Below, piece after piece: positions 4,770 through 29,124 of a DNA stretch of 34,440 bases (its first letter is position 1; every line of letters begins with the position of its first letter). The translations under genes were made by a program, and so were the position numbers. The notes below the pieces were generated by a model. The model ran no database searches. It saw only the letters and a list, made by a program, of their open reading frames with translations, and was not told the DNA's origin. Location: IMG/VR virus record IMGVR_UViG_3300037502_002272, positions 1-34,440 of that record; one strand, 5' to 3'. The DNA is from a virus.

Positions 4770-5993
4770 TTGTCCGAGTACCTTCGCAAGCTCGTGGAGG
4801 ACCGCCAGTCGGCCTACCACGCAGCCAAGGCAAAGATGGACGAGGCCGCCGCTGAGAAGCGCGACCTGTCCGCTGAGGAGCGCGAGTTCGTCGACCGCAC
4901 GTTCGCGGAGCTCGACGAGAAGCGCGCCACCATCGACACCCTCATCGAGGCCGAGAAGCGCGAGCGCGAGATTGCCGAGTCCATGCGTGGGCTCGAGGAT
5001 GTCGTGCGTCCCGTTGAGGCCCGTACCGCGGCCGACAACAGCGACGCGGAGATCCTTCGTCAGCTGATCGCTGGCGAGCGCCGCTCCTACAGCTTCCAGT
5101 TTGAGAAGCGCGACCTGAGCAAGGCGTCCACCAGCAACGCCCCGATTCCGACGTCCTTCTCAGATCAGGTCATCGACCAGGCCCGCATGGTGGGTCCCTG
5201 CCTGGACCCCAGCGTTGTCACGGTTCTGAACACCGCGTCCGGTGAGGATCTTGTCCTCCCGTCGCTGTCGGCGTTCTCGACTGCCACGCTCGAGGCCGAA
5301 GCCGACACGATCAACGAGTCTGATCCGGTGTTCGGCAAGACCACGCTGAAGGCCTACAAGTACGCCTTCATCGTTCAGGTCTCGCAGGAGTTCCTGGCCG
5401 ACAGCAACATCGACGTCATCGGTTTCCTGGCTCGCCAGGCCGGCAACGAGCTCGGTGTCCGCGTCAACAACGCCCTGACGATCGGCACCGGCACGGACCA
5501 GCCTCTCGGCATCGCGACCGCTGCTGCTGCTGGCGTCACCGGCGGCACCGCTGTTGCGGGCACCCTCGGCACCGGCGCTTTCACCGCTGACAACCTCATC
5601 GACCTGGTCTACTCGCTCGACGGCGCGGCTCGCCGCCTGCCGGGCTTCGGGATCATGGCGAACGGCTCCAGCATCGGCGCGATGCGCAAGCTCAAGACCA
5701 CGGACGGCGACTACCTGTTCGCACCGAGCCTGTCCGCGGCGGCAAACGACACCCTGCTCGGGTACGGAATTGTCGAGAATCCAGCCATGGCGTCGGTCGG
5801 CTCGGCCGCCCGCTCCGTCCTGGCCGGGCACTTCCCGTCGTACTACGTCCGCACCGTGGGCGGCATCGACGTGGCCCGCTCGGATGACTTCGCCTTCAAC
5901 ACCGGGCAGGTCACCCTCCGCTTCCAGATCCGCGTCGACGGCGCTCTCCCGCAGACGTCGCACGTCAAGCGGTTCACCGGCGGCACCGTCTAG
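4770..5993 (+). CDS. major capsid protein (HK97 fold)
   Basis: A protein of 407 residues. The first 90 or so are highly charged and coiled-coil-like (KMDEAAAEKRDLSAEEREFV), matching the scaffolding delta domain that the upstream protease removes. The mature part starts near the RDLSKASTSNAPIPTSF stretch and carries typical HK97-fold segments such as YKYAFIVQVSQEFLADSNID and a C-terminal DVARSDDFAFNTGQVTLRF. The start is TTG, 9 nt after an AAAGGGG ribosome site that sits in a small hairpin. It is the most abundant structural protein and the likely acceptor if the sugar cassette directly downstream acts on the virion. Confidence 0.94.
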   Translation: MSEYLRKLVEDRQSAYHAAKAKMDEAAAEKRDLSAEEREFVDRTFAELDEKRATIDTLIEAEKREREIAESMRGLEDVVRPVEARTAADNSDAEILRQLIAGERRSYSFQFEKRDLSKASTSNAPIPTSFSDQVIDQARMVGPCLDPSVVTVLNTASGEDLVLPSLSAFSTATLEAEADTINESDPVFGKTTLKAYKYAFIVQVSQEFLADSNIDVIGFLARQAGNELGVRVNNALTIGTGTDQPLGIATAAAAGVTGGTAVAGTLGTGAFTADNLIDLVYSLDGAARRLPGFGIMANGSSIGAMRKLKTTDGDYLFAPSLSAAANDTLLGYGIVENPAMASVGSAARSVLAGHFPSYYVRTVGGIDVARSDDFAFNTGQVTLRFQIRVDGALPQTSHVKRFTGGTV

Positions 5994-6011: not shown

Positions 6012-6051
6012 GTGAGGGGCCCCGCTTTGCGCAGGGGGCGGGGCCCCTCAC
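6012..6051 (+). terminator. strong hairpin after the capsid gene
   Basis: GTGAGGGGCCCCGC (6012-6025) and GCGGGGCCCCTCAC (6038-6051) are perfect 14-base inverted repeats around a 12-nt loop, 19 nt after the capsid stop codon. No T run follows, so it is not a classical intrinsic terminator. It may protect the 3' end of capsid mRNA or reduce read-through into the sugar cassette. It separates the ancestral head genes from the inserted genes. Confidence 0.6.
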
Positions 6052-6077
6052 ACCCCCTGCGCACCCAAGGAGAAACG

Positions 6078-7349
6078 GTGGCCCATGCCACGAAAGCCAC
6101 AAGAAGTCATAACGCGTCACGTTCAGGGAATCCCGCTCGACGTGCCGCCGCCCGAGAGGGAGCAGCTGCTGCGCCTGGGCCTGCTCCACGAAGAATCATC
6201 TGGGCATCAAACTCGCCCTGGGCGCAAACCGGCTACGGCGAACAAACGCAGCAAGCCGTCCGACGCATCAAAGCCGCCGGCTACGAAGTAGCGGTTGCCG
6301 CGAACTACGGCCTCGAGGGCTCCATCATGGAGTGGGAAGGCGTGCAGGTTTACCCTCGCGGCCTCGACGTCTACAGCAACGACGTGATTCCTGCTTACTC
6401 GATGGACTTCGGTAGACCGACGGGCCAGCAGGCCGTCGTCATCACCTTGTTCGACTGTTGGGTGTTCAAAGGTGGCGGCTGGGATGTCCTCGAGCGTGTC
6501 GCCTCATGGGTGCCGATTGACCATTTCCCTGCCCCCCAGCCCGTGATTGACTGGCTGGCGCGCCCGAACGTCACACCCATTGCGATGTCGCAGTTCGGCA
6601 AGGACGCGATCGAGCGCGCCGGCGTGCAGGCCTTGTATGTGCCGCACGCCATCGAGACGAAGATCTTCAAGCCGAACGAGATGATCTCCGGCAGCGACGG
6701 CACGGTGCGGGCCCGTCAATGGATGGGCGTGCCTGAGGACGCTTTCGTCATCGGCATGGTGTCCGCCAATAAGGGCTCTATCGACCGCAAGTCGTTCGCC
6801 GAGTCGTTCCTGGCCGCCGGCATGGTTATGCAGGAACGCGACGACGTCTGGCTCTACCTGCATACGGAGCCGACGCCCGCGATGACGGGACTGGACTTGC
6901 GGGCGCTGCTGCGGGCGACGGGCGTTCCTGAGGAGCGCGTCAAGTTCGTCGACAACTACACCTACCGCCTGGGCAGTATCCCGAAGGAAGCCTTGGCGTC
7001 GATTTACACGGGCATGGATGTTCTGCTGCAGCCGAGCCGCGGCGAAGGGTTCGGCATCCCAGCAGTCGAGGCGCAGGCCTGCGGGACTCCCGTGATCGTC
7101 AGCAACGCCACCGCCCAACCTGAGCTCGTCGGCGACGGCTGGGCTGTCGACGTGCAGCCGTCCTGGGATGTTGCCCAAGGCTGCTGGTTCTTCACCCCCA
7201 TTGTCGGCAGCATCGTGGACGCGCTCAAAGAGGCTTACGACCGGGGCCGAGGCCGGTCTCAGAAAGCCATGGACTTCGCCGCGCAGTACGACGCGGACGT
7301 CGTGTTCGACAAATACTGGAAGCCTGTTCTGCAGGAGTTGACGGCGTGA
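6078..7349 (+). CDS. GT4-like glycosyltransferase
   Basis: A protein of up to 423 residues from the GTG at 6078, which follows AAGGAG by 4 nt. A convincing glycosyltransferase sequence begins only near residue 40 with RIIWASNSPWAQTGYGEQT, the sugar-acceptor Rossmann domain. The donor domain carries the retaining GT-B signature EGFGIPAVE (E323 and E331, the EX7E motif) followed by ACGTPVIVSN. The first 38 residues are Arg/Ala/Pro-rich and look like out-of-frame sequence, while another frame there encodes a better small protein. No start codon lies closer to the conserved domain, so the true start is uncertain. The stop overlaps the epimerase start by 4 nt. It likely transfers a sugar to a phage or host product; the target is not shown by sequence. 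Confidence 0.85.
   Translation: MAHATKATRSHNASRSGNPARRAAAREGAAAAPGPAPRRIIWASNSPWAQTGYGEQTQQAVRRIKAAGYEVAVAANYGLEGSIMEWEGVQVYPRGLDVYSNDVIPAYSMDFGRPTGQQAVVITLFDCWVFKGGGWDVLERVASWVPIDHFPAPQPVIDWLARPNVTPIAMSQFGKDAIERAGVQALYVPHAIETKIFKPNEMISGSDGTVRARQWMGVPEDAFVIGMVSANKGSIDRKSFAESFLAAGMVMQERDDVWLYLHTEPTPAMTGLDLRALLRATGVPEERVKFVDNYTYRLGSIPKEALASIYTGMDVLLQPSRGEGFGIPAVEAQACGTPVIVSNATAQPELVGDGWAVDVQPSWDVAQGCWFFTPIVGSIVDALKEAYDRGRGRSQKAMDFAAQYDADVVFDKYWKPVLQELTA
6085..6291 (+). CDS. small protein overlapping the glycosyltransferase start
   Basis: A 68-residue frame that starts at ATG, 11 nt after the same AAGGAG used for the glycosyltransferase. Its first 35 or so residues (ITRHVQGIPLDVPPPEREQ, then LLRLGLLHEE) look more like a real folded protein than the other frame does. 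The end is rich in Lys, Pro, Ala and Ser, like tails of small head-associated proteins that follow capsid genes in other actinophages. The last 30 codons overlap true glycosyltransferase codons in another frame. Either both proteins are made, or one of the two ends is a non-functional remnant. No slippery heptamer joining the two frames was found. Confidence 0.5.
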   Translation: MPRKPQEVITRHVQGIPLDVPPPEREQLLRLGLLHEESSGHQTRPGRKPATANKRSKPSDASKPPATK

Positions 7350-8278
7350 CCGCTGTCGTCACCGGCGGAATGGGCTTCATCGGCTCGCACCTGGTCGACC
7401 GGCTCCTGCTCGAGGGCATGGACGTCCTGATTGTCGACGACTGCCGGTCCACTCGGCAGCGGGCCAGCGAGCTGTGGCCAGGTGAGGAACGCGTCAAGCT
7501 GCTGATGGCGGACTGCCGCGAGGTTGTCCTGCCGGTCAAGGCGGACGTCGTGTTCCATTTGGCGTCCCCTGTCGGGCCTGTCGGGGTGTTGAACCGCGCC
7601 GGCCGTATCACGCCGGAGGTTGTCGACGGCTCCCTGGCGGCTGCCCGGTGGGCGGTGCGGGACGCCTGCCCCATGATCGACGTGTCCACGTCGGAGGTGT
7701 ACGGCGGCGGCGACCAGGGGCTGTGCGCCGAGTCGATGCCGCGGATCGTGGAGGCCGGTGCCTGGGCGCGCCTGGAGTATCAGACGGCGAAGCTCGCGGC
7801 AGAGGTGATGCTGGTGAACATGCCGGACGTCGACGTCCGCATCATTCGCCCGTTCAACGTGGCCGGCCCACGGCAGTCCTCCGCCGGCGGCTTCGTTCTC
7901 CCCCGACTGGTCGAGCAGGCCCTGACCGGGAACCCGTTGACGGTCTACACGCCAGGGACGCAGCGCCGCGCCTTGACGCACGTTCTCGACATCGTGGACG
8001 GCATTTGGCTGGCTTGGCGTAAGGGCGAGGCGAACCGGGATTACAACCTGGGGAACCCGGGCAACACCTGCTCGATGATGGCGCTGGCGCAGGAGGTCGC
8101 TGACTATGTCGGCGGCGCTGACGTTCAGGTTGTCGACCCGGTGGGCCTGCATGGGCCGGAGTTCCGGGAGGCGGCGGAGAAGTTCCCTGACGCCACGAGG
8201 GCGATGACGGAGCTGGGCTGGCGGCCGTCGAGGTCGCGGGCCGACATTATCGCTGACACGGTGGAGTGGGCGCGATGA
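7346..8278 (+). CDS. NAD-dependent sugar epimerase/dehydratase (extended SDR)
   Basis: A protein of 310 residues. The NAD-binding Rossmann motif GGMGFIG is at 7-13, with the acidic residues D31/D32 after the second strand. The catalytic triad is complete: S114/T115 in DVSTSEVYG, Y145 and K149 in YQTAK. RPFNVAGPRQ and the downstream substrate loop are typical of nucleotide-sugar epimerases and dehydratases. The GTG start overlaps the glycosyltransferase stop, and its own stop overlaps the next start, so the three genes form one translational unit. The exact sugar product cannot be read from the sequence; a modified NDP-hexose for the flanking transferases is the natural inference. Confidence 0.88.
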   Translation: MTAVVTGGMGFIGSHLVDRLLLEGMDVLIVDDCRSTRQRASELWPGEERVKLLMADCREVVLPVKADVVFHLASPVGPVGVLNRAGRITPEVVDGSLAAARWAVRDACPMIDVSTSEVYGGGDQGLCAESMPRIVEAGAWARLEYQTAKLAAEVMLVNMPDVDVRIIRPFNVAGPRQSSAGGFVLPRLVEQALTGNPLTVYTPGTQRRALTHVLDIVDGIWLAWRKGEANRDYNLGNPGNTCSMMALAQEVADYVGGADVQVVDPVGLHGPEFREAAEKFPDATRAMTELGWRPSRSRADIIADTVEWAR

Positions 8279-8934
8279 TCCCGGTGATCGGGGTGCCGGT
8301 GCTGAACCGCGGCGACCTGGCCGAGCGCATGCTGGAGTCGGTCGACGTCGACACAGCCGAGACCCTGGTGATTCTCAATGGGGAACCGGACGACACACGC
8401 GCCATGCTGCGGGGCCGCCTGGTCACCTACATTGACCCGGGCTTCAACCTGGGCGTGGCGGCCTCCTGGAATCTGATTATTCGGGCGAGGCCGTCGGCCC
8501 CGTGGTGGCTGATTGTGAACGCCGACATCGAGTTTGGTGCCGGCGATCTGGCGCGCCTGGTGGAGGCGATGTCGGACCCGGCCGCGAAACTGGCGTGCCT
8601 GTACGAGTTCGGGGCGTTCGCGATCAATCAGGCCGCGGTCGACCAGGTCGGCTGGTTCGATGAGAACTTCCACCCCATCTATTTCGAGGACAACGATTAT
8701 CGGCGGCGCTGTCAGCTCGCTGGCGTCCCTGTGGTGAATTTGATTAGCCGCACTCGGCATGACAATTCGTCGACGATTGCGAGCGGGTTCGCTGCACATA
8801 ATGCGCGCACGTTCCCTCGGAACTTGGATTACTACGTCGCCAAATGGGGCGGCCCACCGAACCACGAGACCGTGACGGCCCCTGGAACGCCCGTGCTGGA
8901 CCGCAGACGGCTTGTCGACAACGCTTGGACATAG
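8275..8934 (+). CDS. GT2-like (GT-A) glycosyltransferase
   Basis: A protein of 219 residues from the ATG that overlaps the epimerase stop (ATGA). It opens with IPVIGVPVLNR, the first strand of GT-A enzymes, then has a GFNLGVAASWN motif and VNADIEF, where N82-A83-D84 fills the place of the metal-binding DXD. A later FDENFHPIYFEDNDYRRR segment resembles the acceptor-side motif of rhamnosyl- and galactosyl-type GT2 enzymes. It is short for the family but the core is intact. An in-frame GTG at 8266 would add three residues. Together with the upstream transferase and epimerase it probably assembles or attaches a glycan. Confidence 0.82.
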   Translation: MIPVIGVPVLNRGDLAERMLESVDVDTAETLVILNGEPDDTRAMLRGRLVTYIDPGFNLGVAASWNLIIRARPSAPWWLIVNADIEFGAGDLARLVEAMSDPAAKLACLYEFGAFAINQAAVDQVGWFDENFHPIYFEDNDYRRRCQLAGVPVVNLISRTRHDNSSTIASGFAAHNARTFPRNLDYYVAKWGGPPNHETVTAPGTPVLDRRRLVDNAWT

Positions 8935-8943
8935 GAGACCCCC

Positions 8944-9570
8944 GTGGCGATTGCGAACGGCTACGCGACCCTGGCGCAGATAAAGAGCGCGCTACGGATT
9001 CCGTCTAACGACGCCACCGACGACACGCTGCTCGAGATGGCTGTCGAGTCGGCGTCCCGCCTCATCGACGCCTACTGCGGCAGGAATTTCATTGCGGGCG
9101 GCACCGCGCCCACGGTTCGGTATTTCAACACCGAGCACCCCTATGTCGTCCAGATCGACGACGCCCGCTCGATCACCTCGGTGCAGACGTCGACGGGCCT
9201 GGACGGCGTGTATGACACGACCTGGACTATCGGCACCGGCGGGTCGGGCGACGCCCAGCCCGAGCCGATCAACGACTACCTGGGCGGCATCGTGTGGCCG
9301 TTCACCAGGATCAGGGCCATCGGCGACTACACGTTCCCCACGGGCGCCGAGAACACGATCAAGGTGACGGCCGTCTACGGCTGGCCCAATATCCCGGTCA
9401 CGGTCACGCAGGCCACCATCCTGCAGTCCTCGAGAATCTTCAGTCGCTTGCAGAGCCCCCTAGGCGTTGCGGGCTTCGGCGACATGGGAATTATGCGCGT
9501 CAGCCGCGGCCTCGACCCGGACGTCGTGCAGCTGGTCGAGGGCTACCGCCGCGTCAACGGTGTCGCATGA
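8944..9570 (+). CDS. head-tail connector / adaptor (HK97 gp6-like)
   Basis: A protein of 208 residues from a GTG with AGGAG 7 nt upstream. The N-terminal helices (YATLAQIKSALRI, then DDTLLEMAVESASRLIDAYCGRNF) are the signature of gp6/gp15-type adaptor proteins that bind under the portal ring. The remainder is beta-rich and ends in a helical part with SRIFSRLQSPLG. It resumes the structural gene series after the sugar cassette. The next gene overlaps by ATGA. Confidence 0.8.
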   Translation: MAIANGYATLAQIKSALRIPSNDATDDTLLEMAVESASRLIDAYCGRNFIAGGTAPTVRYFNTEHPYVVQIDDARSITSVQTSTGLDGVYDTTWTIGTGGSGDAQPEPINDYLGGIVWPFTRIRAIGDYTFPTGAENTIKVTAVYGWPNIPVTVTQATILQSSRIFSRLQSPLGVAGFGDMGIMRVSRGLDPDVVQLVEGYRRVNGVA

Positions 9571-9977
9571 CGACCCTGACCAGCCTGCGGCAAGGCATTT
9601 CCACGAACCTGGCCACCATCCCCGGCCTACGGGCGCTGCCCTACATCCCCGACAATCCGCAGCCCCCCGTCGCCATTGTGATGCCGGGCCGCATCACCTA
9701 TGACACCGCGTTCGGTCGCGGCTCCGACGAATACCAGTTCACCGTCATGGTGATCGTCGGCCGCGTCGCCGACCGCAATTCACAGACCACGCTCGACGCC
9801 TACTGCGCCTCCTCAGGGAGCGCGTCGATCAAGGCGGCAATCGAGCGGGACCGCTACCTCGGCGGTTCCGCTTTTGATTGCCGGGTAACAGAAATGACCA
9901 ACCAGTCGCCTCTGGCGATTGGGGACGTCATCTATCACACGGCCGAGTTCTCGGTCACCGTCATTGCCGCCGGCTAA
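9567..9977 (+). CDS. tail terminator or tail-completion protein
   Basis: A protein of 136 residues, ATG overlapping the connector stop. It begins with a helix (LTSLRQGISTNLATIPGLR), followed by PPVAIVMPGRITYDTAFGRG and alternating beta strands. Size, fold pattern and position just before the major tail protein match the tail terminator/completion family of siphoviruses. A head-tail stopper is an alternative. The next gene lies 12 nt downstream with an AAGGAGAA ribosome site. Confidence 0.6.
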   Translation: MTTLTSLRQGISTNLATIPGLRALPYIPDNPQPPVAIVMPGRITYDTAFGRGSDEYQFTVMVIVGRVADRNSQTTLDAYCASSGSASIKAAIERDRYLGGSAFDCRVTEMTNQSPLAIGDVIYHTAEFSVTVIAAG

Positions 9978-9989
9978 GGAGAATCAGGA

Positions 9990-10418
9990 ATGGCAAAGTT
10001 CATCGGCAAGAATCTTCGGGTGAAGGTCGGCAGTACCGAGCTCACCTCCAGCATCGCAAGCGTCGAGGTCACCGAGACGGTTGACGAGATCGAGACCACC
10101 GCGTTCAACCAGGCGGCCCGCAGCCGCATTGCTGGTCTGAAGGACGCGTCCGTGACGATCAGCTTCCACGCAGGCTTTGAGACCAGCGAGGCGAACACGG
10201 TGCTGAACAGCGTGTTCGGCGGCACGACCAGCGTCGTCATTTACGCGGGCACGGCCACGAATGGCAGCGTCGCCGCAGCTGGCGCGCCGCTTTTCACCAT
10301 CCCCTGCTTGGTGTCGCAAGCCACCCCCGTGAACGGCCAGGTCGGTGACCTGACCACGTTCGACGTGACCTGGCCCGCTGTCGGCGAGATCACCCGGGCC
10401 ACCACCGGCACCTTCTAG
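9990..10418 (+). CDS. major tail (tube) protein
   Basis: A protein of 142 residues with AAGGAG upstream. It is mostly beta sheet: MAKFIGKNLRVKVGSTELTS, then VEVTETVDEIETTAFNQAARSR and DASVTISFHAGF, the pattern of short actinophage tube subunits. The position between the tail-completion gene and the frameshifted chaperones is diagnostic. It would polymerise around the tape measure protein to form the tail tube. Confidence 0.82.
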   Translation: MAKFIGKNLRVKVGSTELTSSIASVEVTETVDEIETTAFNQAARSRIAGLKDASVTISFHAGFETSEANTVLNSVFGGTTSVVIYAGTATNGSVAAAGAPLFTIPCLVSQATPVNGQVGDLTTFDVTWPAVGEITRATTGTF

Positions 10419-10432
10419 GTCAGGAGACCACC

Positions 10433-10714
10433 TTGCGCATCACGTTCCAGATCCAGTACGCCGACGGTACGGCGGCCGAGGCTACGGCCTCGGTCGCCGA
10501 CCAGGTGGCCTTTGAGCAGCAGAACGACCGCAGCATCGCCCGCCTGGCGGACGACTTCCGCCTCACGGACGCCTGCTGGCTTGCCTGGCACGCGCTCTAT
10601 CGCACCAGTAAGACCACGGCGTCGTTCGAGGCGTGGCTTGATTCAGTCGACAACGTGGAGATTGGCGAGTCCAAAATCGCCCCTTTGGAGGGGACGACAG
10701 CGCCCACTGGCTGA
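10433..10714 (+). CDS. tail assembly chaperone, short form (lambda G-like)
   Basis: A protein of 93 residues from a TTG, with AGGAG 7 nt upstream in the recurrent block GGAGACCACCTTGCGCAT. Sequence such as RSIARLADDFRLTDACWLAWHALYR followed by KTTASFEAWLDSVD is typical of siphovirus tail assembly chaperones, which bind the tape measure protein during tail building. A slippery heptamer near the end of the frame leads to a longer product. The major tail gene lies upstream; an HK97 gp10-like gene, then tape measure, follow. Confidence 0.85.
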   Translation: MRITFQIQYADGTAAEATASVADQVAFEQQNDRSIARLADDFRLTDACWLAWHALYRTSKTTASFEAWLDSVDNVEIGESKIAPLEGTTAPTG

Positions 10715-10839
10715 TAGTCCACCTGGCCTACGAGTTCGGTTTGGCGCCTTCGGTTGTGGCCGCGGAGTCGGACCGAATGATCTTCACGATGTCGCGGTAC
10801 CTGTCCTGGCGCGCCCAGCAGGTCAACAAGAGGGGCTAG
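10433..10839 (+). CDS. tail assembly chaperone, -1 frameshifted long form (lambda GT-like)
   Basis: A -1 slip at CCCTTTG (10681-10687) joins the first 85 residues to 50 residues of a second frame that runs to a TAG at 10837-10839, giving about 135 residues. The added part reads GGDDSAHWLIVHLAYEFGL and then MSRYLSWRAQQVNKRG, sequence of the kind found in the T domain of such chaperones. The second frame has no start codon or ribosome site of its own. Frameshifted chaperone pairs before the tape measure gene are a conserved feature of siphoviruses. Confidence 0.8.
10681..10687 (+). promoter_or_regulatory. -1 ribosomal slippery site CCCTTTG
   Basis: The zero-frame codons GCC CCT TTG give a perfect X-XXY-YYZ heptamer, C-CCT-TTG. 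The downstream -1 frame stays open for 50 codons. G-rich sequence (GGAGGGG) directly follows and may add to stalling. Confidence 0.8.
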
Positions 10840-10842
10840 GCC

Positions 10843-11364
10843 GTGGATTATTCGGTGCGCATCGAAGGAGCAGACGAAGCGCTTAAGGCCCTAAGGGTGC
10901 TCGAGCCTACCGTTGCTCGCGAAGTCGGCAAGGAAGTGTCGAAGATCGGCGCCGCTTTAGCAGCGGCTGTTCGTTCTGTTGCACCCACCGAGCCGCCTGT
11001 CTCCGGTTGGCGCGGAACGAGTGGCGCTTCAGGTTCCCGGGGTGGCGCCGGTTGGCCAGCGTGGTCCCAGGTTCAAGCCTCATCTACGCGTCGAGGAATG
11101 ACAGCTCGCGTGCGGACGTCGTCGAACCCGCCAGCCATTGCAAGCCTTGCTGAGTCTTTGGGGCGAGGTACGCGATGGAAGACTCGCGCTGGACTGAATC
11201 TGGTGGCATACGCCCGCACGCGATGGAGCCCAATCGTCAAGTCAGGTCGCAAAGAGGGCCGTGTGGCTCGAGCGGCCATTGCTCAGGAATACCCCGAGGC
11301 AATGCGCGACCTGCAAAAAGCAGTTGACAAAGCCGTTGAAGCAGTGAACCGGAGGATGCCCTAA
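10843..11364 (+). CDS. HK97 gp10-like neck/tail protein
   Basis: A protein of 173 residues from a GTG just 3 nt after the chaperone stop. The opening MDYSVRIEGADEALKALRVLE and the helix EVGKEVSKIGAALAAAVRSVAP are typical of the HK97 gp10 family, which in most genomes sits before the tail terminator. Here it lies between the chaperones and the tape measure, which is unusual. Its base composition is visibly less GC-rich and its codons differ from neighbours (more GCT, GTT, CGA and AAA). The end overlaps the tape measure ATG by one base. Role in head-tail joining or tail assembly is inferred from family only. Confidence 0.65.
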   Translation: MDYSVRIEGADEALKALRVLEPTVAREVGKEVSKIGAALAAAVRSVAPTEPPVSGWRGTSGASGSRGGAGWPAWSQVQASSTRRGMTARVRTSSNPPAIASLAESLGRGTRWKTRAGLNLVAYARTRWSPIVKSGRKEGRVARAAIAQEYPEAMRDLQKAVDKAVEAVNRRMP

Positions 11365-13256
11365 TGGCTGTTGCTGGGTCAGGCAAAGGCATCCAAATTG
11401 TAGTTGGGGCAGACTACAACGACCGCGACCTCAAGCGCGCCCAGCGCGACCTAGACCGACTCAAGCGCGAGGCCGCTCAGACGGCTACGCCAATGCAGAA
11501 ACTTGGCGGCACTATTCGTTCAAGCCTTGGCCCTGCCTTGGCGATGGCTGCTGCTGCCGCTGGCGCCCTCGCGATCAAGTTCGCGGTCGACGGTGTGCGG
11601 GCAGCTGCCGAAGAAGAAGCCGCCCTCATCAAACTGAGCACGGCCCTAGAGAACGTCGGCCAAAGTTTCGCTGAGGCTGAGGTCAACGACTTCATTGACG
11701 ACCTCCAGCGGGCGACTGGAGTCGCTGACGACGAACTCCGGCCAGCGTTCCAGCGCCTTGTCACCGCCACGCGCGACGCCGCCAAGGCGCAGGATCTGCT
11801 GACCCTCGCGCTAGACATCAGCGCCGGCACGGGCAAAAGCCTCGAGTCTGTCACCTTGGCCCTATCGAAGGCGGCGACTGGCCAGGCGTCGTCGCTGCGC
11901 CGCCTCGGCGTCCCCCTGTCCGACGCGGCGATCAAATCAGGCAACCTGAACGACATCACCGACGAGCTGTCCGAGTCCTTTAGTGGCCAGGCGTCAGCGG
12001 CTGCACAGACCTTCCAGGGACAGATCAAGCGCCTCGGCGTCGCCTTCGGTGAGCTGCAGGAGTCTTTCGGCAAGGGATTCCTCGACGCTCTCAGCGACAC
12101 GAATGGCGAGACCGACAGCCTCATGGCGTCAATCGAGGCCCTAGAGCCCGTGCTTTACGACTTGGGCGAGCAGCTGGGCACCATCGCGAAGGCCATGATT
12201 GACCTGGAGGAGAACACGGGAGCCGTGTCGGCCGTGTTCAAGGGCCTGGCCGACGTCACCGGGCCTGTCCTCGACGCCATCCTGTTCCTGTATCGAGTCA
12301 TCAGCCAGGGCGAAGACCCGCTCGAGGCTGCCAAGCAACAGTTCTTCGGATTGGGCGAGGGCCAAGAATCGGCCAGGCTAAGCGCACAGAACCTGAAAGA
12401 CTCGGTGCTGAACACGTCGGGTGCTATCGGCGAGCTTGACGACAGCACTCAGGAAGCTGCCGACCAGCTGAAGATCCTGAACGATGAAATGCAGGAGTTC
12501 TTCGGGTTCCTCGATGACCGCAGCGCGCTTCGCTCCTACGAGGACGCCGTCGACGACCTGCGCCAGTCGTTGAAGGAGAACGGCAAGACCTTCGACACCA
12601 ATACTGAGGCCGGCCGCGCGAACGAGGACGCCCTTGATGGCGTGTTCCAGAATGCGCTGAAGGTGGCCGAGGGTCAGGCCACGGCTGCTCAGAAGATCAA
12701 CACGATGAAGGATGCGGCCCGCGACGCCGCAGCGCAGTTGGACAAAACCAACATGAGCGACGCCGCCAAAGCTCGCCTGCTGGCTCCGTTCGACGACGCC
12801 ATCGCCAAGTTTGAGACGGCTTATACGAAGGTGGACAACCTCAAGCAGGCGATGGAACTGCTACCTCGTGACATTCCCATCAACGTGACAGTCAACACGA
12901 CCTACGTCGGCACACCGCCTCCTGGCGGATACAACACGGGCGCGACGAACGGCTCGGCCTATGGCGGCTATGTGGGTGGGCATGGCGGCTCGAGGGCGGA
13001 TGACGTGCCGGCGATGCTGTCGTCGGGTGAGTTCGTGATCCAGGCTCCGTCGGTTGCGAAGTTCGGGCGCGGCTTCTTCGCCGCGTTGAACCAAGGCGTG
13101 AACCCGCTGGCGGGGATGACGCCGGCGACGCTGCGCAGCGGCGGCGGGTTCCAGATCGGCACCATCAATGTGGCGTCCGCCCCTGGTGAGCGCGCTGAAA
13201 CGTCCCTCCCCCGCGCGCTTCGGCGGCAGGCTTTCCTGGCAGGTGCGAATGTCTGA
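11364..13256 (+). CDS. tape measure protein
   Basis: A protein of 630 residues that sets tail length and occupies the tail tube lumen. The N-terminus has a charged coiled coil (YNDRDLKRAQRDLDRLKREA), then a hydrophobic Ala-rich segment near 54-73 followed by a long helical region with LTLALDISAGTGKSLESV and ALSKAATGQASSLRRLGVP, the hallmark of phage tape measures. The C-terminal part is glycine-rich (YGGYVGGHGG) and ends with the SGEFVIQAPSVAKFGRGFF motif common in such proteins. At about 1.5 angstrom per residue it predicts a tail near 95 nm. It overlaps its neighbours by 1 and 8 nt. Confidence 0.9.
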   Translation: MAVAGSGKGIQIVVGADYNDRDLKRAQRDLDRLKREAAQTATPMQKLGGTIRSSLGPALAMAAAAAGALAIKFAVDGVRAAAEEEAALIKLSTALENVGQSFAEAEVNDFIDDLQRATGVADDELRPAFQRLVTATRDAAKAQDLLTLALDISAGTGKSLESVTLALSKAATGQASSLRRLGVPLSDAAIKSGNLNDITDELSESFSGQASAAAQTFQGQIKRLGVAFGELQESFGKGFLDALSDTNGETDSLMASIEALEPVLYDLGEQLGTIAKAMIDLEENTGAVSAVFKGLADVTGPVLDAILFLYRVISQGEDPLEAAKQQFFGLGEGQESARLSAQNLKDSVLNTSGAIGELDDSTQEAADQLKILNDEMQEFFGFLDDRSALRSYEDAVDDLRQSLKENGKTFDTNTEAGRANEDALDGVFQNALKVAEGQATAAQKINTMKDAARDAAAQLDKTNMSDAAKARLLAPFDDAIAKFETAYTKVDNLKQAMELLPRDIPINVTVNTTYVGTPPPGGYNTGATNGSAYGGYVGGHGGSRADDVPAMLSSGEFVIQAPSVAKFGRGFFAALNQGVNPLAGMTPATLRSGGGFQIGTINVASAPGERAETSLPRALRRQAFLAGANV

Positions 13257-15713: not shown

Positions 15714-17349
15714 TGGCGAGATGAGGCGGCCTCCGCAGTTGTGGGAGCAGCGCCTAGCGCGCACCACTTCGGTGCTCGGTGTCGGGTTGTCGAGCTCAGG
15801 CGATGCGACAGCGATTGTGTCGCCGACCCCGCCGCCTGGCGCCGGCGGTGGGGTGGAGCCGGCACCGGTTCTCCCGCCACCTGGCGATTTCATCAAGCCG
15901 TCGACGCCGCAACTCATCGGCGCCGTTCAGGGAATCAGCGTCCTGTGGGACGGGCTGAACTCGGCCGGCGACCTGTGGCCCTATGACACGTCATGGGTCG
16001 AGGTTCACATGTCGACAGCCGGCACCGGGTTCACTCCTGGGACGGCGACGCTGCGCGGTCGACTCGCTCGGCCTGGCGCCCTGTATGTGGGCGGCTTGAC
16101 GGCAGGCACGACGTACCATTTCCGGCTTCAGGGCGTGAACCCTGCTGGGGGCACGACGGAGCCCAGCGACGCCGCGAGCGGCCTGACAGGTTTGACGACG
16201 GCCAGCGACTACGGCACCGCTACCATTGGCAGCGGAGCAGTCTCGTTCAACGCTCGGCAAATCGGTGGCGTGACGAACACGGTCGGCTCGACGGCCCCCA
16301 CGAGTCCCCTGCTGAATGACGTGTGGCTGGACTCCTCCCCTGGGACCGCCATTGTTCACAAGATCTGGAACGGCTCCACATGGGTGACAAACGCCTGGGG
16401 CTCGGCGTCCATCGCCGCCGGCCAGATCACCGCCTTACAGATCGCCACCGGCGCCGTGACAGCTGGTGCTATTTCCGCCGGCGCCATAACCGCAGAGAAG
16501 ATCGACGCGGGCGCAATAACGGCTGACAAGATCGCGGCGCTCACGATCACGGGCGACAAGATCGCGGGCAATACAATCTCGGCTGACAAGATCTCCGCCG
16601 CGTTTATTACTGCCACCGACGTCGGATCAGGTGGAAGTACTGTAATTGACGGTGGCCGCATTACTTCCGGCACAATCACGGGCCGCGTTGTCCAGTCATC
16701 GAGCGGCTCCGCGCGCATCGTGCTCAACAACGCGGACACCCTTGACTTCTTCTCCGGAGGCGTGAAGCGCGGCGACTTCTACGGTGTCACCGTCAGCGGC
16801 CTTGACGGCATTGGCGTGACAGGCGCCCTCGATGTATCCAGCACCGTGTTCTGTCCAGACCTCGAGGTGTCTGACGATGCCAAGGTCACCGGTGACATTG
16901 AAGTCGACGGCGCCTTGACGGACACGTCCACTTCGGTCCCGAACCTTCGCATCAACACCACGACCGGTGTCATCAAGCAGACAACACACGCCAATTCGGC
17001 ACAAAGGTTCAAGCACGACATCATTCCCCTAGATGACACGGCGTTTGGTGGCGCCATCGACCCCAGCAAACTCGGCAACCCTGACGACCAGGCCGTCGAC
17101 CCTTACGACATCCTTGACGTCACGCCCATTCAATATCGCCGCAATGAGGCCCCAACCGTCATTGTCACGGGTTTCCTCGCTGAAGACGTGGAACAAAAGT
17201 TCCCCACGGCGGCGACATATGACGACGACGGACTGCTTGAAACCATCGACGAGCGCGCCATCGTTGCCGCGCTCCTCGCCGTCGTCAAGCAGCAGCAGAC
17301 CGAGATGAACGACCTGCGCGCCCGTATCGAAGCCCTGGAGGCGCCGTAA
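15706..17349 (+). CDS. tail fibre with FN3 domain, repeats and S74 self-cleaving chaperone
   Basis: A protein of 547 residues. After a Pro/Gly-rich linker (about 36-60) comes a fibronectin type III-like domain (about 63-165), then tandem repeats at about 235-300 of the form [10 protein letters not shown], which in phage fibres form trimeric beta-structures. The C-terminal part from about 431 is an intramolecular chaperone of the peptidase S74 family: SAQRFK provides S431 and K436, followed by [28 protein letters not shown] and a terminal coiled coil. In that family the chaperone trimerises the fibre and then cuts itself off. Overlaps the flanking genes by 8 and 1 nt. Confidence 0.82.
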
Positions 17350-19178
17350 TGCCCATGCCAGCGAACGTCACGACCGTCGTCGTGCTCGGCACCTTCCTCA
17401 CCCCCGAAGGCGACCCGTCCACCGGCACCATCAGCTTCACGCCCTCGAGCTGGTTGACGAACTCCGGCGCGAACGTCGCCATCCCGAATTCGACCGTGAG
17501 CAAGACCCTCGGCACGGCCGGCAACTTCTCCGTCACCCTGCCGATCACTGACGACCCTGACCTGTCCCCGTCGGGCTTCATCTACACGGTGTCCGAAGTT
17601 GTCGACGGCGTTTCTCAGAATTACAACATCTCCATTCCGGGAACGATTGCGTCGGGCGGCACCCTGTACCTGGCGGACCTGGCGCCCGTGGCACCAGCCG
17701 GGCCGGAGTATTTGTCGCTGGCCTCAAGCTTGTCTATCGGAACCGTCACGACCCTGGCTGCTGGTTCCGCGGCGACAGCGACCATCACCGGCCTGGCGCC
17801 TAGCCAGACGCTGAACCTGGGCATTCCGACGGGGCCGCAAGGAGCCACCGGCGATACGGGGCCGACTGGGCCGACCGGGCCTCAGGGAGCCACGGGCCCG
17901 ACGGGGCCGCAGGGCAACACCGGCACGCTCGCTGTCGGCTCGGTTACATCCGTCGCCAACTCCGGCACCGCGTCAGTCACTAACGTCGGCTCGTCGACGG
18001 CCGGCACGTTCGACTTCGTGCTGCGCGACGGCCCGACCGGGCCCCAGGGCGCTACCGGGCCGGAAGGTCCGCAGGGCCCGCAGGGAGCCACCGGGCCCCA
18101 GGGGGCCACGGGAGCGACAGGGCCGGCTGGTTCAGCTGCGACGGTCACCGTCGGCAGCGTCACCGCGGTCGCCTTCGGCGGCACCGCGTCGGTCACGAAC
18201 ACGGGCACGAGCGCGGCGGCCGTGCTCGACTTCGTGCTCGTCACCGGCCCCCAGGGCGCCATTGGTGACCTGACCGCCGCCGACCCCATCTCCTACGTCG
18301 GGTCTCAGTTCTCGCTCAAGTACGGCGCTGGATTGGGCACCGCAACTGGCGGCACCCTCGTGGCGGACTTCTTCGACGGCACCCCATCGGCGCTCGCAGC
18401 CGCCGGGTCGGCCGGCACCTCGAGCGAGCTCGCTCGAGGGGACCACGTCCACGCAAGGCCCTCGGCAGCCGATATTGGCGCCGTGGGCACGGCCACGGCC
18501 ATCACGGCCGGCACGGCCCTAGCGGGCGGCGGCGACCTGTCGACGTCGAGGACGCTCGACGTGGTGCTGTCGACTGCGACCCCGGCCGCTCTCGGGGTGG
18601 CAGCTGCGGGCACGGCCAACAACCCGTCCCGAGGCGACCACGTCCACGGCATGCCCAGCGCCTCCGACGTGGGCGCTGTCAGTTCAGCCCTAGTTGACGC
18701 CAAGGGCGACCTAATTACTGCAACGGCAGACAACACCCCCGCAAGGCTGGCGGTAGGTGGCACTAACGGTCACCGGCTTGAGGTGGCCTCGGGTGAATCC
18801 ACCGGACTCAAATGGGCACCTGACCCCGTCGTCCTAGCGGTCGCGGTCAGTGACGAGACTACTTCCATCACGACAGGTACGGCCAAGGTCACTTTCCGTA
18901 TGCCGTTCGCCATGACGGTCACCGCTGTACGGGCGTCCCTGTCTACGGCGTCTACGTCTGGCAACCCGACCTTCGACATCAATGAAGGCGGCACCTCCAT
19001 CCTCGGAGCCAATAAACTCAGCATCGACGCAAACGAAAAGACTTCGACGACGGCAGCCACGGCGACCACGATCAGCGACTCGGCCCTAGCCGACGATGCC
19101 GAAATCACCATCGACATCGACACGGCAGGCACCGGGGCCAAGGGTGCCAAGGTCTACATCATTGGAACAAGGGCATGA
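17349..19178 (+). CDS. collagen-like minor tail protein
   Basis: A protein of 609 residues. After a beta-rich N-terminal domain of about 155 residues come two collagen-like Gly-X-Y blocks (near residues 158-190 and 226-258, such as [16 protein letters not shown]), each followed by the same beta module ([18 protein letters not shown] and its copy). Two HVH-bearing repeats with [11 protein letters not shown] and [11 protein letters not shown] follow. The last 110 residues form a separate beta domain ([19 protein letters not shown]) found at the ends of other phage tail proteins. Likely a trimeric fibre shaft with a receptor tip. The ATG overlaps the upstream stop by one base. Confidence 0.8.
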
Positions 19179-22964: not shown

Positions 22965-23596
22965 ACCAGCCCACCCCGAAGGAAATCAAGGCCGCGCTGC
23001 GGGACTGGATTCCCGCCCACCTGCTGACCTTCCGGCCTGGCTGGAAGGAGCGTGGCCGGCCGTGGTCCTACGGCATCCGTGGCGTCATGTTCCACCATTG
23101 GGCCGGCACGGGTGATGGCGGCCAGAACTGGATGGAGGCCCGCGACGGCGCCTACCCGTTCTGCAACGCCACGGTGCGCCGCGGCACCGGCACGTCCAAG
23201 GACGGCGAAGTCATGGTCATCAGCGCCCTGTCGGCTTGGCACTCGGGCCTGGGTGGCCCGTGGGGCCGCGCCGGCGTCCCGAAGGACGTCGCGCACCTCA
23301 TGGTGTGGGGCACCGAAATGGAAGGCCCGCTGCCGTCAACCAGGTTCGGGGTCGACGACATGACCGACGCCCAATGGGACTCCGCAATCCGTATGGCGTG
23401 CGCCATCCGCGAAGTCGCCGGACCCGAAGCGTTCCCCAACTTCCAGCGCTGCATCACACACGCAAATTGGACCGACGGCACTAACGGTGTCGCCGCATTC
23501 CAGCTGCCCACGTTCGGTCGAAAGAACGACGTCTGGCGTCCCACGAAGGACATTCGCCGGATGTGCAATCGCGCCTGGCGAGAAGCCGGACGCTAA
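22961..23596 (+). CDS. endolysin, N-acetylmuramoyl-L-alanine amidase type
   Basis: A protein of 211 residues. GVMFHHWAGTGDGG (41-54) gives the first zinc histidine of Amidase_2 enzymes; further conserved parts are SAWHSG (H94), WGTEMEG (E119/E121) and CITHANWT (H167) followed by GRKND (D190 as likely third ligand). It would cut the bond between muramic acid and the stem peptide. There is no signal peptide and no separate wall-binding domain. The ATG overlaps the stop of the small acidic gene. The C-terminus is basic. Confidence 0.85.
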   Translation: MNQPTPKEIKAALRDWIPAHLLTFRPGWKERGRPWSYGIRGVMFHHWAGTGDGGQNWMEARDGAYPFCNATVRRGTGTSKDGEVMVISALSAWHSGLGGPWGRAGVPKDVAHLMVWGTEMEGPLPSTRFGVDDMTDAQWDSAIRMACAIREVAGPEAFPNFQRCITHANWTDGTNGVAAFQLPTFGRKNDVWRPTKDIRRMCNRAWREAGR

Positions 23597-23615
23597 CTCG
23601 ACGAAAGGACAGCTC

Positions 23616-23861
23616 TTGTCCTCCCTGCTCGACAACCTGGCTGACCCGAAATACACCTATCGCAAAGGCCCGGCGTGCTCCGTGGCCCTCACCCTCGACC
23701 AAATGGACGACAGCACGACGAAGAAGTTCAAGGCCGCGATGGCTAACCCGTCCGCGCCGGCAACGCAGATCGCCAAGGCCGTGCAGGAACTCGGCTACAC
23801 GGTCCGCTATGAGGCGATCCAGCGACATCGACGGGGGGCTTGTCGTTGTGACCAGTCTTGA
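23616..23861 (+). CDS. small HTH DNA-binding protein
   Basis: A protein of 81 residues from a TTG with GAAAGGA upstream. The C-terminal half, SAPATQIAKAVQELGYTVRY then EAIQRHRRGACRC, has the form of a helix-turn-helix (helix, turn at LG, recognition helix) and ends in a basic CRC motif known from small actinophage proteins. The end overlaps the metallophosphoesterase gene. A role as a transcription or nuclease-associated factor is possible; the family has no known function. Confidence 0.6.
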   Translation: MSSLLDNLADPKYTYRKGPACSVALTLDQMDDSTTKKFKAAMANPSAPATQIAKAVQELGYTVRYEAIQRHRRGACRCDQS

Positions 23862-25047
23862 CGAGCTCGCAGCAGCTTCACCGGACGGACAGGTGCCCGC
23901 CGCTTCGCTACCAGCGGGATGGGCGCCGTCCGTCGCCTACGACGCCTCCGGTAGGGCGGAGGTCGTCGTATTGGGCACAGGCCAGCCCGGCGACGAATCC
24001 ACCTGGGCTGACGAAGTGCGCGCCCTCGGTGTCGAGATCGAACCGGGCTGGTCTGTGCGTTTGGCGGAGGTCAGGCATGACCCTCGAGCGTGGGTTCGGC
24101 ACGCCCAGGGCGAGAAGGCCACGACCGAGCCGGTCACCCGCCGGCGGTACGTCATCGAGCCAGGACGGCCGGCGGCCGTCGACGTTGACGAGCTCCTGGC
24201 CGCCATCCCTCCGAAGCGACCTGTACGCAAATCCGTACAGACCGACGACCCGTGGGCCTACGTCCACACGATCGCTGACTGGCAGATCGGCAAAACCGCC
24301 TACGGCCTCGGCACCGAGCAAACCGTGCAGCGCATCCTTGACGGCCTCGACGCCTCCCTGGCCCGGCTCAAACGCGAAGGCAAACGCCGCCCCATCGGCA
24401 CCGTCGTCCTCGCCTCGCTCGGGGATTTATGCGAGGGCACCACCAGCCAAGGCGGCGCCGTCCACCTGACCGCCGACCTCGGCCTCACCGAGCAGCTGCG
24501 CGTCATCCGCCGGCTCCTCCTCGAGCACGTCAAGGCGTTCGCCGCCGTGGCCGAGCACGTCATCGTCCCCACCGCCCCCGGCAACCACGACCAGGCCCAC
24601 CGCCTCATGGGCATCACCGCACCCGCCAACGACTCCTTCGCCGTCGACGCCTCCATGCAAGTCGCCGACGCCCTCCACCTGGCCGGCGGGTTCGACCACG
24701 TCCGCATCGTCACCCCCGACGTCGACGACCTCACCGTCACCATCGAGGCCGCCGGCACGATCATCGGCTGCGCCCACGGGCACCAATTCCGCGGACCGGA
24801 CAAAGCCCAGGACTGGTGGGCCAAACAAGGCCATGCCCGACACCGCATCGGCCAAGCCCACCTGCTGCTGTCCGGCCATTGGCACCACTTCCGAGTCTCC
24901 GACGACTCCGGCCGCGTCCACATCGGCTGCCCCACCGTCGACCCCGGTTCGCCCTGGTTCGATCAGCGCAACGGCGGCGGGCCCCAGCACGGCGTACTCA
25001 CCCTGCTCACCCGCGAGGGTGCCTGGACCGGCTTGGAGATCCTGTGA
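23848..25047 (+). CDS. calcineurin-like metallophosphoesterase
   Basis: A protein of 399 residues from the GTG at 23848, preceded by GGGGGG. An ATG at 23809 would add 13 residues and overlap the HTH gene more; the start is uncertain. Metallophosphoesterase motifs appear in order: IADWQIGK (motif I, D-x-Q in place of D-x-H), LGDLCEG (GD), PGNHDQAH (GNHD), AHGH and SGHWHH (GHxH). These bind two metal ions for phosphoester cleavage. The first 130 residues are a separate, family-unassigned domain. Phage enzymes of this kind may act on DNA ends or nucleotides. It overlaps the next gene by 4 nt. Confidence 0.82.
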   Translation: MTSLDELAAASPDGQVPAASLPAGWAPSVAYDASGRAEVVVLGTGQPGDESTWADEVRALGVEIEPGWSVRLAEVRHDPRAWVRHAQGEKATTEPVTRRRYVIEPGRPAAVDVDELLAAIPPKRPVRKSVQTDDPWAYVHTIADWQIGKTAYGLGTEQTVQRILDGLDASLARLKREGKRRPIGTVVLASLGDLCEGTTSQGGAVHLTADLGLTEQLRVIRRLLLEHVKAFAAVAEHVIVPTAPGNHDQAHRLMGITAPANDSFAVDASMQVADALHLAGGFDHVRIVTPDVDDLTVTIEAAGTIIGCAHGHQFRGPDKAQDWWAKQGHARHRIGQAHLLLSGHWHHFRVSDDSGRVHIGCPTVDPGSPWFDQRNGGGPQHGVLTLLTREGAWTGLEIL

Positions 25048-25286
25048 AACCCATCGACAAGACCCTCGCCGAGGAAGCCGTCCAGGTCGTCACCGGCCCC
25101 AGGCAAGCCGCCTACGATCACCCGCGGCGCAACTTCCAGCGCATCGCCGACCTCTGGTCCCCCATCCTCGGAATGAAAGTCACTCCCGAGCAGGTCGCCC
25201 TCTGCTGCGTCCAAATCAAAGTGGCTCGCGAAATCCACGCACACAAGCGCGACAACATCGTCGACGCCTGCATGGAGGACAAATGA
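25044..25286 (+). CDS. DUF6378-like phage protein
   Basis: A protein of 80 residues from a GTG overlapping the phosphoesterase stop (GTGA). The pattern ...GPRQAAYDHPRRNFQRIADLW..., then a VTPEQVALCCVQIKVAREIH stretch and KRDNIVDACMED is the DUF6378 domain. It is all-helical and common in phages next to DNA metabolism genes; the biochemical role is not known. A resemblance to MazG-type helical pyrophosphohydrolases has little support from visible metal ligands here. Confidence 0.7.
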   Translation: MKPIDKTLAEEAVQVVTGPRQAAYDHPRRNFQRIADLWSPILGMKVTPEQVALCCVQIKVAREIHAHKRDNIVDACMEDK

Positions 25287-25908: not shown

Positions 25909-26685
25909 TCAGGAAGCCCACGCGCCCACAGCGGCGTGCAGGTCGTCGTCGTTGATGTGAGTGTAGATCTCCGTCGTGGAAATCGACGAGTGTCCGAGCA
26001 GCTGCTGCACCGCCCGAATATCGTGCGACGCCCGATACACGTTCCCAGCGAAGTAATGCCGCAGGGAGTGCGCCGACCAGGTGCCCGGCAGCGCTCGAGC
26101 GATCCGCCTTCCCATGGCGTCCGGCTTGATGGGGCCACCGTCCACGTTGGGGAACGCGTACCCGCCTCGAGCCTTCACCTCCCGCAGCTGCTCCTCCAGC
26201 AGCGGATGGATCGGCACCCGACGCTCCTTGGAGCCCTTGCCGACTACCGTCAGCATGCGGTCCCCGATCTGGTCGGCGTGCAGGTTCGCGATCTCGGCCC
26301 TCCTGAGCCCGGCGTAGGCGGCCAGCATGATGGCCAGCCGGTCCCGAGGAGCAACCCGCTCCAAGGCCTCCAGCAGGGCCTCTTTCGGCGCCTCCTTGAT
26401 CGACCTTGGCGGCATCTTGATAGGCCGGGTCTTTAGCGTGGGATCAACCTGCACCCGGCCCGCCTCCATGGCCCAGCGGTAATACGACCTCAGGCTGGCC
26501 CTGGCGGACAGCTTCGTGGCCGGCTTCCAGGTCGGGTTGTCCAGCCACTCGATGATGATTTCAGGCGTTGCCGTGTCGAGGTCGTGCTTCTTGCTGAACC
26601 GCTCGAGGTGATGCACTCGCAGGCGGATAGTGCCCTCGCTGAGGTTCCCGGCTCGCAGCCAGGACTGGTACTCAGGGAAGGGCAT
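25909..26685 (-). CDS. int: tyrosine integrase
   Basis: A protein of 258 residues on the minus strand. The N-terminal SAM-like core-binding domain covers about 1-90. The catalytic residues are all present: R128 (AGLRRAE), K150/K153 (GKGSK), H206 and R209 (HSLRH), H232 (LGHSS) and Y241 (EIYTH). It lacks a separate arm-binding domain, which makes it short for a lambda-type integrase. The ATG at 26685 lies 6 nt after a 13-G run that could act as ribosome site. An in-frame GTG at 26772 would add 29 residues read through the G run. It should recombine the tRNA-like attP upstream of it with the matching host tRNA gene. Confidence 0.9.
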   Translation of the reverse strand: MPFPEYQSWLRAGNLSEGTIRLRVHHLERFSKKHDLDTATPEIIIEWLDNPTWKPATKLSARASLRSYYRWAMEAGRVQVDPTLKTRPIKMPPRSIKEAPKEALLEALERVAPRDRLAIMLAAYAGLRRAEIANLHADQIGDRMLTVVGKGSKERRVPIHPLLEEQLREVKARGGYAFPNVDGGPIKPDAMGRRIARALPGTWSAHSLRHYFAGNVYRASHDIRAVQQLLGHSSISTTEIYTHINDDDLHAAVGAWAS

Positions 26686-26691
26686 CAGCTG

Positions 26692-26704
26692 CCCCCCCCC
26701 CCCC
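26692..26704 (-). repeat. 13-base homopolymeric G run at the integrase start
   Basis: The plus strand has 13 consecutive C; on the integrase strand this is 13 G ending 6 nt before the ATG at 26685. Such runs slip during replication. The run can pair with the anti-Shine-Dalgarno at almost any length, but its length sets the frame between the upstream GTG (26772) and the integrase. A sequencing error in run length is possible. Confidence 0.8.
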
Positions 26705-26859
26705 GCTGGGGTGTGGTTCGTTCGTGTCGTCCCATCGGTTTCCCCCCGACGTGTAGTGGATTGAGTCCACAACTTTCCGCCCCTTCGCTAACGCAGGAAC
26801 GTGATTGGCCGAAACCTGATATGGGATATTTCAGAACATGACACGCCCTAGACGCCGAA

Positions 26860-28494: not shown

Positions 28495-28844
28495 GTGGAT
28501 GGAACCACCCCGAACCGTGTGCCCGTTGCGGCATCTCGCGTCGTCGACGCTCCGGCGACCAGGCCATGTGCGCGGCCTGCCGCGAGATCCCCAGCATGGA
28601 CATGCCCCGCTGGACCGCCTACGCATCCTGCAAAGACCCCAACTTTGACCCCAACTGGTGGTGGCCGGAGAAGACAGACGACCCGGTCGCGCCTGTCGCC
28701 ATGGCCATCTGTCGCAGCTGCAAAGTCCGCGACCTCTGCCTGGACTATGCGATCCATCACCGCGAGGTCCACGGAATCTGGGGCGGCACCCTGCCGACAC
28801 ACCGCGCCGCACTCGCCGCATCACGCAAACGCAGGAGCGCCTAA
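28491..28844 (+). CDS. WhiB-family regulator with N-terminal zinc ribbon
   Basis: A protein of 117 residues. The C-terminal part is a WhiB domain: cysteines C47, C74, C77 and C83 in the usual C-(n)-CxxC-x5-C spacing bind a 4Fe-4S cluster, and GIWGG (95-99) is the family turn before the basic tail SRKRRSA. Ahead of it sits an extra CARC...CAAC ribbon (C10, C13, C27, C30). Phage WhiB proteins such as that of TM4 interfere with host WhiB2, septation and superinfection. The GTG overlaps the previous stop; the next gene overlaps by one base. Confidence 0.88.
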   Translation: MSGWNHPEPCARCGISRRRRSGDQAMCAACREIPSMDMPRWTAYASCKDPNFDPNWWWPEKTDDPVAPVAMAICRSCKVRDLCLDYAIHHREVHGIWGGTLPTHRAALAASRKRRSA

Positions 28845-29116
28845 TGCCGGCCCTCATCCCCACCCCAGAAGACATCGACCGCATGACACCAGCGCAGAAA
28901 GCGAAGATCCGCCGGTACGTCGCCAAGGTCGCCCTCGAGCTCGACCAGGCCGCCCGCGACACCGTCACGTTGCAAGCCGCCGAACGTCAACGCCAACTCA
29001 TCGAATGGGGCGAAGACGTCCGCCGCCAAGCACGCCTCGCCCTCGCCCAACAACGCCCCGACCCACCGCACGTCACCGCCGCCCGCCGACAAGCGCTACT
29101 CGACGCCACCCGATAG
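28844..29116 (+). CDS. small charged helical protein
   Basis: A protein of 90 residues. It begins MPALIPTPEDIDRMTPAQKA and is almost all helix with many Arg, Gln, Ala and Glu residues (TLQAAERQRQLIEWGEDVRR). The ATG overlaps the WhiB stop by one base; the RecB-like nuclease follows after 8 nt. Likely an accessory replication protein or regulator; no family is recognised. Confidence 0.55.
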   Translation: MPALIPTPEDIDRMTPAQKAKIRRYVAKVALELDQAARDTVTLQAAERQRQLIEWGEDVRRQARLALAQQRPDPPHVTAARRQALLDATR

Positions 29117-29124
29117 GAGCCCGA

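Follow-up and report, generated by a model that had tools for sequence, protein, structure and literature searches.

The window analysed here comprises 34,440 nucleotides, positions 1 to 34,440 of the IMG/VR virus record IMGVR_UViG_3300037502_002272. On its plus strand, a cassette of three enzyme genes lies between the gene for the major capsid protein with HK97 fold (4770-5993; Pfam Phage_capsid, 176.6 bits, 9e-52; phrog_10) and that for a head-tail connector or adaptor (8944-9570; Pfam Phage_connect_1, 26.4 bits; phrog_442). Pfam and PHROGs agree on these neighbors, which confirms the placement given in the initial annotation. The first gene encodes a GT4-type retaining glycosyltransferase with GT-B fold and EX7E motif (6078-7349, GTG start, 423 AA), as indicated by Pfam, PHROG, alignment, AlphaFold2 and Foldseek. 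A Shine-Dalgarno sequence, AAGGAG at 6067-6072, is located 5 nt 5' of its start and is kept in relatives. It is followed by an NAD-dependent nucleotide-sugar SDR (7346-8278, GTG start, 310 AA) and a GT2-type glycosyltransferase with GT-A fold and NAD motif (8275-8934, ATG start, 219 AA). The three genes are intact and, as described before, both junctions are 4-nt overlaps. A hydropathy analysis with a 19-AA window found 0 membrane segments in the three enzymes, with no hydrophobic segment above 1.33, so their acceptors are probably cytoplasmic.

The class assignments of both transferases are well supported. The GT4 protein matches Pfam Glycos_transf_1 with 52.8 bits (cut-off 26.4), and its EX7E pair is invariant in 27 of 27 aligned homologs. 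The GT2 protein matches Glycos_transf_2 with 35.6 bits (cut-off 23.3), and the Asp of its NAD motif (Asp84), a DXD-like acidic motif, is invariant in all 30 aligned homologs. Structure prediction, proposed earlier as a check, was run for both transferases with AlphaFold2 on input alignments of window and viral-contig sequences. It confidently returned a GT-B fold for the GT4 protein (pLDDT 90.6), with GT-B proteins as Foldseek neighbors, and a GT-A fold for the GT2 protein (pLDDT 94.3). The two proteins thus belong to glycosyltransferase families 4 and 2, respectively, and the motifs and folds noted from the sequence hold for both. The nearest solved fold to the GT4 protein is B736L of chlorovirus NY-2A (3oy2), at 18 % identity, and the fold neighbors include the envelope enzymes PimA, PimB' and WaaG.

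The SDR scores 119.2 bits against Pfam Epimerase (cut-off 20.9), and its T-G-G-x-G-x-I-G and S-E motifs, Y145xxxK149 and R208 are invariant in 14 aligned sequences. With its GxxGxxG cofactor motif and YxxxK it is an extended SDR of the nucleotide-sugar type, and with cofactor and catalytic motifs intact it is the complete NAD-dependent sugar epimerase/dehydratase that had been proposed. Its best solved matches are UDP-glucuronate decarboxylase 1 chains in the PDB (E-value 5e-38), which lead the next group (5e-21) by about 17 orders of magnitude. The Ser-Glu, the Tyr and Lys of YxxxK and the Arg of the QxRA motif all align with UDP-glucuronate decarboxylase. However, the SDR stays under every curated NCBIfam equivalog cut-off, with 67 bits against the 294 demanded by the best UDP-xylose-synthase (UXS) model, and it is therefore filed as UXS-like only. 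UDP-xylose or a related 4-keto-pentose as its product is a lead and no assignment. Neither a UDP-glucose dehydrogenase nor a pyrophosphorylase turned up in the scan of window genes, on a contig that may be incomplete. Since these genes include no enzyme making UDP-glucuronate, the precursor must be supplied by the host, and the cassette is not self-contained as first described.

Related loci were gathered with capsid, connector and cassette queries, and the best 80 loci per query were retained. Within this set, 54 contigs or contig stretches span the region from capsid to connector, corresponding to 42 distinct intervals, and all 54 carry a GT4 gene in the slot. More than half of the loci were brought in by the capsid or connector queries; remote relatives lacking the cassette could be missing due to the limit of 80 loci per query. 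The GT4 gene is a fixed part of the head operon in the lineage of this phage. From the GT4 stop to the start of the connector gene, the genes present differ between relatives. In the window, the SDR and GT2 genes are the first and second gene of this module, and the connector gene forms its right border. This SDR+GT2 arrangement (type A) occurs in 8 intervals including the window and in 1 further interval with an extra GT17. A different transferase with a different SDR (type B) fills 22 intervals and, with an extra methyltransferase, 1 more; in another, L129, a type B SDR is present, but the transferase frame was not recovered. A methyltransferase alone (type C) was found in 2 intervals, a methyltransferase with a GT2 (type D) in the Pontimonas phage phiPsal1, and a GT2 with a cytidylyltransferase and an unassigned protein, with or without GT17 (type E), in 6. 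Nearly all of these variable genes encode glycan chemistry. In type E modules (L197:7035-7978, L200:6259-7978), the CTP-transferase-like enzyme is accompanied by a 172-AA protein without a Pfam match that has a conserved C-terminal end, KYKGNWGQKP, suggesting a donor of the alditol- or polyol-phosphate type.

Types A and B are interspersed in the trees, where supported branches require type A to have changed at least 5 times for the capsid, at least 3 times for GT4 and at least twice for the connector. Pairwise nucleotide identity between phages of the two types is mostly 70-95 % in the capsid and GT4 genes, drops to 20-50 % past the end of GT4 and is back at about 80-90 % from the connector start. 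Because of this interspersion and the collapse and recovery of identity at sharp borders, the modules have been swapped as units, and the sequence comparison indicates that whole modules are exchanged by recombination between these two positions. The idea that the cassette interrupts an otherwise continuous series of head genes holds in part. Compared with distant phages that have a related connector and no cassette (REQ1, Madraxi and Shagrat), where capsid and connector are separated by 0-2 small genes, and with phiC31, where the same applies between capsid and adaptor, the region is enlarged. Within its own lineage the slot is filled in every spanning contig found, and the suggested comparison of relatives with and without the cassette yielded no cassette-free close relative among the spanning contigs from the best 80 loci per query. 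An insertion into the continuous operon of close relatives was therefore rejected. A separate observation concerns the capsid itself, which is strongly diverged in L007, L008/L168 and L131 (61-67 % identity) while GT4 and connector remain close; for L168 and L131, GT4 identity is 78 %. In L007 and L008 the protease is diverged as well (67-68 %). This pattern points to capsid exchange beside a conserved GT4 gene.

The short region between the capsid and GT4 genes contains an RNA hairpin (6012-6062, plus strand) with arms at 6012-6025 and 6038-6051. The strong hairpin first seen 3' of the capsid gene is real: its stem of 15 pairs is 99.7 % paired in 23 sequences, and 10 of the 15 pairs show changes on both sides. 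The loop at 6026-6037, TTTGCGCAGGGG, is invariant and complementary to a downstream stretch, CCCCTGCGC at 6054-6062, just 5' of the GT4 Shine-Dalgarno sequence. This complementarity is conserved without covariation. A classical H-type pseudoknot was rejected: in this lineage the linker of 2-5 nt is too short to span the 15-bp stem, and the second helix lacks covariation. No Rfam family matched the hairpin. A pattern scan of viral contigs returned 77 stretches. Among the stretches checked, 61 precede a GT4 gene, as does L331, which falls just outside the position rule; of the remainder, two are reverse-strand readings of the same site and one is too short to judge. The divergent phages L020, L033 and L193-L200 share the loop motif GCGCAGG. 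The hairpin may balance the expression of the capsid against that of the downstream genes and is possibly a new regulatory RNA.

A nested small ORF of 68 AA (6085-6291, plus strand) overlaps the GT4 start in the +1 frame. Its ATG is present in 48 of 48 relatives, and a motif of about HVLGTPLDVPPPEREQLLRLGLLHEE is conserved. By contrast, the first ~37 residues of the GT4 protein are not conserved as enzyme, and the conserved core begins at about codon 38. The third-position pattern shows that selection acts in the frame of the nested ORF over its first ~36 codons. In the later part of the stretch from GT4 codon 1 to about 38, the third positions of the nested ORF are the most variable (0.35 vs. 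0.15-0.19), whereas in the GT4 core this is the case for those of the GT4 frame (0.29 vs. 0.11-0.15). The GT4 start codon is GTG in 47 of 48 sequences and TTG in one, and stops are absent from the GT4 frame. Since both starts are kept and the GT4 frame has no stop, the two frames overlap in a dual-coding region. The joint chance of the GT4 frame being open with the amino acids of the small ORF fixed is about 5e-7, a rough value as the 15 sequences are not fully independent. The N-terminal extension of the GT4 protein thus looks like a by-product of the overlapping frame. A frameshift from the nested ORF into the GT4 gene is unneeded given the kept GTG or TTG start with its Shine-Dalgarno sequence and the stop-free GT4 frame. 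The nested ORF has no Pfam or PHROG match, and no homology to gp12 of Shagrat or to a Pfam family was seen.

Outside the lineage, GT4 homologs were found 3' of capsid genes belonging to several capsid PHROGs in at least 17 further phage-like contigs, so that transferase genes are linked to virion genes in these as well as in the 54 spanning contigs. Their genomes are assigned to Actinomycetota, Chloroflexi, Planctomycetes (Pirellulales), Proteobacteria and others, although these host labels are weak since many are MAG fragments. The full order GT4-SDR-GT2 recurs in two Chloroflexi contigs (L216 and L219) at 38-54 % identity. In the same slot, phiPsal1 (MG835450, genes 010-012) has capsid, GT4 (45 %), methyltransferase, GT2 (42 %) and neck protein genes, the methyltransferase lying on the opposite strand where the window has its SDR; these genes are annotated, and the paper does not discuss them (PMC6106888). 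The Microcystis phage Mae-JY09 likewise has, at 9787-12508, a GT4 (37.5 %) and an SDR (35 %) downstream of its capsid gene, but with a different ORF between the two and a 132-AA ORF between capsid and GT4. The position of the cassette is not absolute, as S-CBS4 has a related GT2 gene upstream of the capsid gene, and a cassette with weak similarity precedes the terminase in the Tetrasphaera phage TJE1.

Functional precedents come from mycobacteriophages, whose transferases are reported to glycosylate capsid and tail tube of the phage itself (PMC12363180, PMC4351075, PMC12619734), with glycosylation of both described for Che8, Corndog and Myrna (PMC12363180, PMC11256854). Corndog gp35-38 comprise an O-methyltransferase and three transferases in the head operon (PMC4351075), and Che8 gp108-110 are three consecutive transferase genes. 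The assumption that actinophages with glycosylated virion proteins usually carry a lone transferase is therefore not supported. These sets resemble the window cassette in co-encoding several small soluble transferases. They differ from it in listing no SDR, and the Corndog set is located between portal and protease rather than between capsid and connector. Che8 gp108-110 gave no significant BLASTP or profile match to the cassette, and homology was rejected; as the proteins are unrelated in sequence, the cassette would have reached the same outcome independently. Chloroviruses such as PBCV-1 and NY-2A also glycosylate their own major capsid protein with their own transferases, although they are eukaryotic giant viruses with N-glycans.

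We consider the locus to be a virion-glycosylation operon, in which a constant GT4 adds the first sugar, likely to the capsid, and an exchangeable module provides donor and extension, and assign this reading a probability of about 0.62. Enzymes that are soluble, draw on nucleotide sugars and are encoded together with late structural genes should have a cytoplasmic phage product as acceptor, and the GT4, being the constant member tied to the capsid gene, would most simply make the first linkage to a virion protein. It would do so in the cytoplasm, with the capsid as its probable acceptor, judging by gene order. The UXS-like SDR would turn a nucleotide sugar of the host into another donor, which the GT2 would add, resulting in a particle glycan that differs between phages, and recombination would replace the module as a unit from GT4 stop to connector start. 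A glycan of two or more sugars, as proposed initially, is plausible for a multi-enzyme cassette with an SDR. Virion-linked glycosylation thus stands as the best reading of a multi-enzyme cassette with a sugar-modifying SDR, without the self-contained donor supply and the contrast to lone transferases, and with insertion retained in part. The sequences establish what the genes are, that their catalytic motifs are intact and their folds soluble, that GT4 is constantly linked to the capsid gene and that modules are exchanged; which product is glycosylated, with which sugars, in what sequence of steps and to what advantage, be it antigenicity, adsorption, particle stability or protection, is inferred. 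Another possible glycan acceptor in the window is a collagen-like or tail-fiber protein of 609 AA with 25 % Ser+Thr (17349-19178). The variation of the capsid in L168 and L131, while GT4 is held, weakens the case for the capsid and leaves a GT4 specificity for it putative. GT4 is also a huge family, which weakens the virion reading. The low identity of the B736L fold match, whose acceptor is unproven, weakens it as well (PMC9614988).

Targets in the host wall or in DNA are less likely than a virion target. If the enzymes altered the envelope of the host, whether its wall teichoic acid, a glycolipid or the capsule, in lysogens or towards the end of infection, other phages could be kept from adsorbing, and phage transferases are capable of such seroconversion. 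The envelope enzymes among the GT4 fold neighbors fit this explanation, as does an integrase-like gene (25909-26772, minus strand; phrog_1), due to which the phage is probably temperate. However, gtr-type seroconversion cassettes need a membrane flippase or membrane-bound transferases, whereas the module encodes neither a membrane transferase nor a flippase or polyprenyl-phosphate enzyme and its proteins lack membrane segments. The location within the head operon, following the capsid gene, and the MAG bins from several phyla with differing cell-wall types also make an envelope target unlikely. It is even less probable that the three genes have no virion target and form a 'moron' set, mobile or metabolic, that happens to do no harm between capsid and connector. 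Free exchange of the module part would agree with this, but the GT4 gene is always present in the lineage, embedded in the head operon, and is kept beside capsid genes far outside it. Glycosylation of the phage DNA as a shield against host nucleases is a frequent reading of phage transferases, e.g. in Nanopelagicales phages (PMC10202952), and a DNA methyltransferase is encoded elsewhere in the window. We regard it as the most improbable target, since the genes are grouped with the capsid rather than with replication genes, the modules of relatives include O-methyltransferase-like proteins and a cytidylyltransferase, and the window genes scanned, on a possibly incomplete contig, include no hydroxymethylpyrimidine synthase or kinase. 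The window also contains two different exonuclease-type genes (23563-25047, phrog_284; 28495-29955, phrog_466) and an ORF with a DUF6378 domain (24429-25286).

The constant/exchangeable architecture and its spread are new here; the literature consulted on virion glycosylation in Che8 and Corndog does not describe a constant GT4 with an exchangeable module. The repeated replacement of modules suggests that these phages re-dress their own particles in different sugar coats. A more tentative proposal, which we consider possible but doubtful, is that capsid-linked anchoring GT4s with exchangeable glycan modules are a widespread and previously undescribed architecture of tailed phages, whose surface 'serotype' is switched by module swaps as bacteria switch O-antigens. 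To our knowledge, a few mycobacteriophages are the only phages for which virion glycosylation has been demonstrated. If the virion-glycosylation reading is true, this would be a second virion-glycosylating lineage, without sequence relation to the Che8 genes and present in phage-like contigs from several bacterial phyla. The natural swaps, with the same anchor enzyme and different sugar genes, would then form a comparison set that makes the role of virion glycans testable in environmental phages, which have no antibody to evade.
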